Both the position numbers and the translations under genes were made by a program. A DNA stretch of 64,000 nucleotides, taken from contig CAIKWE010000036.1 in assembly GCA_903831085.1 (NCBI GenBank), positions 1 through 64,000 on the forward strand, read 5' to 3'. The notes under the pieces were generated by a model. That model was not told where the DNA came from. It did no database searches and worked only from the letters and a program-made list of their open reading frames with translations. Source of the DNA: an uncultured Verrucomicrobiota bacterium. Its GTDB lineage: Bacteria > Verrucomicrobiota > Kiritimatiellia > Kiritimatiellales > Tichowtungiaceae. Below are positions 29,703 to 48,527 of the stretch, piece by piece. How positions within the stretch are numbered: position 1 is the stretch's first letter; every line of letters begins with the position of its first letter.

Positions 29703-30141
29703 TCTCAAAATCGTATGATATTCGGGATAGGCGCGGCCACCGTCCGCACCCACAGTTAAGAGCGATTTTCTGTAGCCGCGTCCGTTGGGCGCGGTAATAA
29801 AAACCGGACGTCATGCGAAGAAGCGATCTCTGCCTGATTGGGATTCCGCGCTGGGACGGCACGTTCCACCTTTTCCGAGATCACGGATCGCGGCAAATAA
29901 ATTCCTGCAAGGCAACCGGGACGGTTGCGATACGTATCGCAGGCGTCCCGCCTGCCTTTAGAAATTACCCCGCATCCGCCGGATGCGGCTGCAATCCTAA
30001 AGCCGACAGCCTATAGCCTTCCGCCTCTGGCGGATCCGCCGAAGGCAGAAAAGCCTTCTCACTTAAAGATGTCCTGCCAGTTGCCGTGGTGGAGGCTGTA
30101 CCGGGATTGATTCTTTTTTGCCCGGCGAGTATGGTGAAGCC
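29703..30141. repeat. Repeat-packed spacer of 439 nt
   Basis: No gene is supported. The spacer is a mosaic of palindromes. 29731-29795 is the module CACCG(T)CCGCACCCACAG...CTGTAGCCGCGTCCG. 29848-29875 holds GGGACGGCACGTTCCACC. About 29910-29956 reads GGGACGGTTGCGATACGTATCGCAGGCGTCCCG. 29971-29987 is CGCATCCGCCGGATGCG. About 30019-30046 reads CCGCCTCTGGCGGATCCGCCG. Related modules lie at 39871-40000, 54687-54800 and 60650-60707. The ORF-track entries here are translated repeats. Confidence 0.75.
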
Positions 30142-30960
30142 ATGAAGCTGTTTGACGCCCATTGCCACCTCCAGTCTCCAGAAATTCTTCCGACCATTGG
30201 AAAAGTTATGGAGCGTGCGGCGGCGGCAGGCGTCGAGCGGATGGCCTGCTGCGGCACTTCGCCCGCCGACTGGAATCAGGTTCTTCAACTCGCGGAACAG
30301 TTTCCACAAGTCATTCCGATGATCGGCATCCATCCGTGGTTTGTAAAAGGTAGGGACGGCTCGCCGAGCCGTCCGCACAATACGGCTCGCCCGGCGGTCG
30401 AGCCCTACCTTTGGAAACAAAATATCCAGACCTTGGAGAAACTGTTGCGTGAAAATCCGGGTGCAGGCGTTGGCGAGACGGGGCTGGATTTTCAGGAGCG
30501 TTTCACCAACCGCGCGGAACAGGAAGCATCGTTTGCGGCGCATCTGGATCTGGCGCGCGAACTGAATCGTCCGGTGGCGGTTCACTGCGTCCACGCATGG
30601 GGACGGCTGATAGAAATCCTGCGCGAACATCCTGCACCGAAGATTATTTTGCACGCGTTCAGCGGCGCACCGGAGCTGATTCCTGATCTGGTAGAACTAA
30701 ACTGCTGGTTTTCATTCTGCGGTTCGGTGACAAATCCGCAGGCCAAACGGGCTAGGGCATCTGTCGTCGCTGTTCCGACAGACCGCCTGCTGATCGAAAC
30801 CGATTCGCCTGATTTTTCGCCTTCGGGCTGTCTGCCGCCCAACGAGCCGGCCAATTTGATCCATGTCGCCCGCGCTGTGGCGGAACTTCGCGGCGTCTCT
30901 GTTGACGAGGTCGCCAACCTGACATTTTTCAATGCGAGGCAAGTTTTTGATGCCATTTGA
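30142..30960 (+). CDS. tatD: TatD-family metal-dependent hydrolase
   Basis: This 272-residue TIM-barrel DNase/hydrolase starts at MKLFDAHCHLQSPEI (30142). It has the metal motif DAHCH, MIGIHPWF, VGETGLDFQERF, AVHCVHAWG, LHAFSGAPELI and IETDSPDFSPSG. Between HPWFV and the helix WKQNIQTLEKLL there is an extra 21-residue segment (GRDGSPSRPHNTARPAVEPYL) encoded by an inserted palindrome. Catalytic residues are intact, so the enzyme is probably still functional. Confidence 0.92.
   Translation: MKLFDAHCHLQSPEILPTIGKVMERAAAAGVERMACCGTSPADWNQVLQLAEQFPQVIPMIGIHPWFVKGRDGSPSRPHNTARPAVEPYLWKQNIQTLEKLLRENPGAGVGETGLDFQERFTNRAEQEASFAAHLDLARELNRPVAVHCVHAWGRLIEILREHPAPKIILHAFSGAPELIPDLVELNCWFSFCGSVTNPQAKRARASVVAVPTDRLLIETDSPDFSPSGCLPPNEPANLIHVARAVAELRGVSVDEVANLTFFNARQVFDAI
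30187..30203. repeat. TTTCCAA-type palindrome
   Basis: CTTCCGA-CCA-TTGGAAA near the tatD start, reading LPTIGK. Confidence 0.65.
30348..30410. repeat. 63-bp palindromic element inserted in tatD
   Basis: AGGTAGGGACGGCTCGCCGAGCCGTCCG...GAGCCCTACCT has terminal inverted symmetry plus an inner GGACGGCTCGCCGAGCCGTCC hairpin. The length is a multiple of three and keeps the frame. A close relative lies intergenically at 48463-48527. Confidence 0.88.
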
Positions 30961-48462: not shown

Positions 48463-48527
48463 GGTAGGGACGGCTCTCCGAGCCGTCCGTTCTCAGTTAG
48501 CGGACGCCTCGGAGATGCGTCCCTACC
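48463..48527. repeat. Palindromic element after argF (tatD-insert relative)
   Basis: GGTAGGGACGGCTCTCCGAGCCGTCCG...GCGGACGCCTCGGAGATGCGTCCCTACC. Same outer arms and same GGACGGCTC...GAGCCGTCC hairpin as the tatD insert. Its end provides the stop codon of the VOC gene. Confidence 0.85.

Follow-up and report, generated by a model that had tools for sequence, protein, structure and literature searches.

The window (the whole 64-kb stretch of DNA that was analysed) contains a tatD gene with a short palindromic element in its reading frame and an intergenic relative of that element. The features are given below with the evidence for each; the last lies on another contig of the same (host) genome.

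30142..30960, + strand: tatD, a TatD-family DNase of 272 aa that carries the in-frame element (Pfam, alignment of relatives, AlphaFold2)
30349..30409, no strand: element in tatD read as a REPIN, GGTAGGG...CCCTACC, 61 nt, translation GRDGSPSRPHNTARPAVEPY(L) (inverted repeats, copy search, empty sites)
30350..30374, + strand: left REP unit, GTAGG-GACGGCTC-GCC-GAGCCGTC-C, stem perfect (inverted-repeat search, arm alignment)
30375..30383, no strand: spacer between the REP units of the tatD element (the G005 and G007 tatD genes have a spacer of equal length and similar sequence)
30384..30408, - strand: right REP unit, inverted, stem imperfect relative to the left unit (inverted-repeat search, arm alignment)
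48463..48527, no strand: second REPIN of the same family, 65 nt, intergenic, between convergent 3' gene ends (inverted repeats, folding)
Contig C20, outside the window (L076, 754-3240): RAYT, complete, in frame in priA together with GTGG-footed REPINs of its own

The tatD element consists of two inverted 25-nt units, each with a GTAG foot and a hairpin, separated by a 9-nt spacer. A sequence-only reading of this DNA had described a 63-bp palindrome with outer and inner inverted repeats at 30348-30410; the place was right, and the exact unit is 61 nt (30349-30409), with 63 nt reached by including a flanking A and T. Both repeats were detected by tool, the outer with 24-nt arms (75% complementary) and the inner of 10 nt (perfect). 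Folded as single-stranded DNA, the element reached -20.1 kcal/mol (z -3.45 vs shuffles). The intergenic relative that had been noted at 48463 was recovered at 48463-48527 and folded to -26.5 kcal/mol (z -7.34 vs shuffles). It lies between two convergent genes, both named by sequence reading: one for an ornithine carbamoyltransferase (stop codon 48454-48456) and a VOC-like one on the minus strand, which ends at 48523 and takes its TAG stop from the GTAG of this REPIN. Upstream of tatD, a palindrome-rich stretch (29930-30060; CCGCCTCTGGCGGATCCGCCGAAGGCAGA and similar) probably belongs to other repeat families.

Hairpins of this strength, one of them between convergent genes, could be read as transcription terminators or structured RNAs that are multicopy by chance. 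This is extremely unlikely: a T-run is absent after the hairpin at both window sites, several copies of the family lie within conserved genes, which termination would truncate, and an Rfam search of the 64-kb window returned tRNAs only, with no known RNA family for the element.

The tatD frame is open throughout, in agreement with the in-frame insertion that had been proposed, and the Pfam TatD_DNase profile matched residues 4-269 (E 1e-67) in one unbroken stretch across the insert. The element is positioned between the GxHPWFV and GETGLDF conserved blocks of TatD, and it gives the protein a loop of 19 residues that is missing from close relatives. AlphaFold2 (13 homologues) predicted a TatD barrel with a mean pLDDT of 91.8, in which only residues 72-83, within the insert, were below 50; the best PDB matches of the model by Foldseek were TatD DNases. 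Residues H7, H9, E112, H148, H171 and D221, which we take to be the TatD metal and catalytic residues, were invariant in the alignment with relatives. On the simplest reading of the model, the insert would be a tolerated, floppy surface loop outside an intact barrel, and TatD with the insert probably still works.

Occupied and empty sites were compared across the genus for tatD and uvrA. The distance from GxHPW to GLDF in tatD is 111 nt in four genomes of the same genus (G006, G009, G010 and G013) vs 168 nt here (net +57 nt); these four hold the empty site implied by the sequence-only reading. In tatD of G005 and G007 the insert is the same as here, with a spacer of equal length. Among the genomes compared the segment was otherwise found only in these two element carriers, and not in TatD proteins that lack the palindrome. 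At the identical site, G008 and G004 have a different REPIN-like palindrome, and G002, G003 and G011 have other inserts. The uvrA copy of the family is present in this genome only, where the interval is 150 nt vs 99 nt in congeners (102 nt in one), a net gain of 51 nt that is absent from ten congeners. The same tatD insert was found in the independent MAGs JADYZA01 and JAOZSE01, and is therefore not an assembly artefact. Named relatives of this tatD were Kiritimatiellota, Kiritimatiellales and Pontiellaceae MAGs, several of them deposited under Verrucomicrobia. Separately, the G007 tatD (L087) has a second in-frame insert of a different repeat type, SSFAKAPADAEAMADKTEDR, after GLDF, and the tatD frame of G018 (L092) stays open across GTGG-footed REPs and on into a RAYT, for a total of 491 aa.

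Genomes were searched for further copies with the pattern GTAGGG-N30..60-CCCTAC, which matched 11 times in the host, 43 times in G007 and 12 times in G009, vs 3 matches of a reversed control pattern in each, well beyond what chance would give. REP half elements are also present in the host genome besides the 11 exact doublets. Positions 1-6 were GTAGGG in 52/52 distinct REP arms from three genomes, and stem positions were variable. With kinship between copies ignored, 91% of stem cells were paired vs a shuffle mean of 71% (max 75%; 500 shuffles), and 75 stem cells were changed on both sides, a large number next to the shuffles (mean 21, max 32). Doublets measured 52 nt from GTAGGG to CCCTAC in 36 of 51 cases and 53-67 nt in the remainder; 52 nt plus the invariant outer G and C make 54 nt, or 18 codons. 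At all 52 ends of the 26 copies examined, CCCTAC is followed by C, and the next base makes CT at 28 ends, CA at 11 and CC at 13. CT and CA are dinucleotides cut by characterised RAYTs (PMC8266576).

Of the 26 copies examined, at least 8 clearly sit in frame within conserved genes. In this genome these are tatD, uvrA, an RluA-type pseudouridine synthase gene, pabB and a B12/radical-SAM gene; in congeners they are hisH and a radical-SAM gene (G009) and a glycerate kinase gene (G007). The Pfam domains of the in-frame host genes span or flank the insert, except in pabB, in which the insert precedes the chorismate-binding domain. REP inserts occupy one site of the B12/radical-SAM gene in two genomes (L075, L210), and a different repeat follows in this genome's copy.

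Elements that are short and multicopy, with inverted termini and no gene of their own, also fit the description of MITEs, which are derived from DDE-transposase insertion sequences and recognised by their terminal inverted repeats. Target-site duplications showed no clear excess among the 26 copies (4-nt direct repeats at the edges in 5/26 vs 1.4 expected, and none longer), every arm is itself a hairpin with a covarying stem, and the same ends border Y1 genes, all of which makes a MITE scarcely credible here.

RAYT genes linked to the family were found in relatives. G007, the genome with the most copies, encodes a Y1-type protein (MPDHLH...YIRMNP) with GTAGGG family hairpins on both sides. Ten relatives of this protein (46-72% identity; in G014, G025, G020, G029, G023, G016, G036, G018, G002 and G049) are all flanked by GTAGGG hairpins as well, about 220-430 nt from the HUH motif and with stems that vary by genome, which gives 11 related genomes in all with a RAYT flanked on both sides. 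Among the Y1 loci scanned, the class of about 340 aa with an NHYH motif had no GTAGGG flanks. The Pfam Y1 profile did not match the cognate RAYT at E 0.001 when the segment alone was searched and matched it weakly (E 0.006) in the genome search; the assignment draws on its HUH and Tyr motifs together with the REP flanks. A search of the host draft genome (94.6% complete) with the G007 RAYT found no cognate RAYT; the best match was the priA-embedded RAYT of another REP family. As a candidate mobiliser for the tatD family, that RAYT (contig C20) was rejected, since its hairpins have GTGG feet and different stems. A standalone Y1 gene in the host is a further, weak match, and its hairpins differ as well. 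With no cognate RAYT found in the host draft genome, the mobiliser was inferred from relatives; the host copies may be remnants, or the RAYT gene may lie in the missing part of the draft.

Family membership, copy number, covariation, empty sites, open frame and RAYT-REP linkage in relatives are each shown by the data. The tatD segment is very probably a GTAG-superfamily REP doublet (REPIN) that was inserted in frame and mobilised by a RAYT in trans. A Rickettsia-type palindromic element (RPE), that is, a selfish in-frame palindrome unrelated to RAYTs, would behave alike outwardly, as RPEs add about 20 residues in frame to unrelated proteins (PMC3733652). The GTAG foot, the RAYT genes with GTAGGG flanks and the REP doublet layout place the element in the GTAG REP superfamily, whereas the intragenic repeats of R. 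conorii were placed in a CGTC superfamily without a dedicated transposase (PMC3733652), and an RPE is a very unlikely identity.

The REPIN would be a non-autonomous mobile element that a RAYT, an endonuclease of the HUH/Y1 (IS200-like) kind, moves in trans in the form of single-stranded DNA. RAYTs recognise and cut single-stranded REP DNA via the GTAG foot, at CT or CA (PMC8266576); here, the RAYT would recognise the GTAG foot and the hairpin. In tatD, one REPIN would have inserted into the loop that follows HPWFV. The frame would have been kept since most frames of the element are open and the net gain in length is a multiple of three. Copies that break needed genes would presumably be purged by selection. 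Judged from sequence, the G007-type RAYT class probably spreads these REPINs, by a transposition chemistry that we infer, as we do its role for the tatD copy.

The insert has diverged less than the surrounding tatD gene in two independent insert types (30346-30411; L078, L087, L079, L083). G000 and G005 differ at 3 of 61 nt within the insert but at 59 of 207 nt of the left flank (p 5e-5), and dS in tatD was 0.07-0.15 for the insert vs 1.2-2.3 for the rest of the gene. The unrelated insert of G008 and G004 gave the same contrast (4/57 vs 133/500 nt). Insert carriers do not form a clade on the tatD tree, which is poorly resolved and weakly supported. A single old neutral insertion leaves both the low insert divergence and the non-clade carriers unexplained. 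The insert could, in addition to being a REPIN, be kept for a function, as a DNA or RNA hairpin or as a peptide; the low divergence between G000 and G005, the dS contrast and the matching contrast in G008 and G004 would favour this. We consider it improbable: replacements are not depleted vs silent changes in the insert (2:1, 9:1 and 7:2), the G007 hairpin has mismatches, very few sequences are available, and the picture would look alike if species had recombined or if one donor had inserted repeatedly at a hot spot. The low divergence may be due to either of these or to constraint on the DNA.

Whole RAYT genes were also found in frame within conserved genes. In the host genome a single PF01797 match exceeded the family cut-off; it falls within priA, where one open frame encodes, in order, the PriA 3'BD, the RAYT with GTGG-footed REPINs at its flanks and the PriA helicase; the insertion is about 217 residues relative to Klebsiella PriA. 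RAYTs in priA were found in 15 genomes of two families (the host, G003, G006, G007, G008, G011, G012 and eight of the second family). They occupy the same PriA linker region and keep the HUH motif, and the presumed catalytic Tyr is a His in G003; dS was mostly saturated and dN was 0.12-0.50. In the relatives, priA as the host gene was recognised from sequence. Other embedded RAYTs lie at L197, L223, L225, L233, L235, L238, L241 and L293-L311. RAYTs are in frame in CCA-adding enzyme and xseA genes of related genomes (Pfam) and, by sequence reading, in hypF and in B12/radical-SAM, cmoB-like, mevalonate decarboxylase-like, formyltetrahydrofolate ligase-like and N6-methylase-like genes. On balance, these loci tip slightly towards a Kiritimatiellales REP/RAYT system that commonly resides in frame within conserved genes, whole RAYTs with their REPs included. 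If so, a RAYT would gain core-gene expression and vertical persistence, and the product would be a chimeric helicase-transposase protein. No description of RAYT-PriA fusions was found in open-access papers. In a 2018 survey of TnpA_Y1 proteins, sequences longer than expected were excluded as gene fusions or annotation errors (PMC6006769), and embedded RAYTs are therefore easily set aside.

With these results, in-frame insertion of REPINs extends to Kiritimatiellota; a single genus holds both occupied and empty sites, a cognate transposase was identified in relatives, and protein lengthening by mobile palindromes becomes testable gene by gene. For a transposase, a place inside priA or another core gene would be a new one, and chimeric proteins might arise from it. 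No report of REPs in Kiritimatiellota was found in the open-access literature. The RAYTs inside priA and other genes, and the slowly diverging tatD inserts, look newer than the REPIN itself.

The tatD REPIN joins a known type, for which intragenic GTAG REP dimers are the precedent. A 2013 survey described GTAG REP dimers that lie in frame in genes, with the largest number in Opitutus terrae (Verrucomicrobia), both uvrA genes of which carry them, and it argued for tolerance in flexible loops (Di Nocera et al., 2013; PMC3733652). Both sets are GTAG-footed inverted dimers associated with RAYTs and found in frame in housekeeping genes including uvrA; the published dimers or groups of them encode 20-30 residues, and the TAG of the foot ends neighbouring ORFs (PMC3733652). 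They differ in that the host here is Kiritimatiellota and the units combine GTAGGG with a highly variable stem; for the GTAG REPs, 24 family consensuses have been published (PMC3733652). REPINs, defined in 2011 (Bertels and Rainey, 2011; PMC3116915), share the inverted doublet with spacer, the long-hairpin or clover fold, compensatory changes and a specific RAYT. Those of Pseudomonas were described as extragenic (PMC3116915), whereas here at least about one in three of the copies examined sits in frame in a conserved gene. The Rickettsia analogy drawn in the sequence-only reading is fair in that RPEs are also in-frame palindromes that add a peptide to many proteins, and it held as to a mobile in-frame palindrome of another sequence in another phylum; the element is not a new RPE-like class but a GTAG-superfamily REP doublet. 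Compared by description, the intragenic R. conorii repeats (RPE-4 and RPE-6, the separate CGTC superfamily) have CGTC feet and no linked transposase (PMC3733652). In TnpA_REP subclass 2.4, in-frame REP inserts are likewise tolerated as peripheral loops, and its NH[IFV]H, WQ and YIxNNP motifs resemble those of the priA-embedded RAYTs (PMC6006769). There, however, the genes entered are those of RAYTs and the inserts are REPs, whereas the genes entered here are other ones and the inserts are REPINs or whole RAYTs with their REPs.
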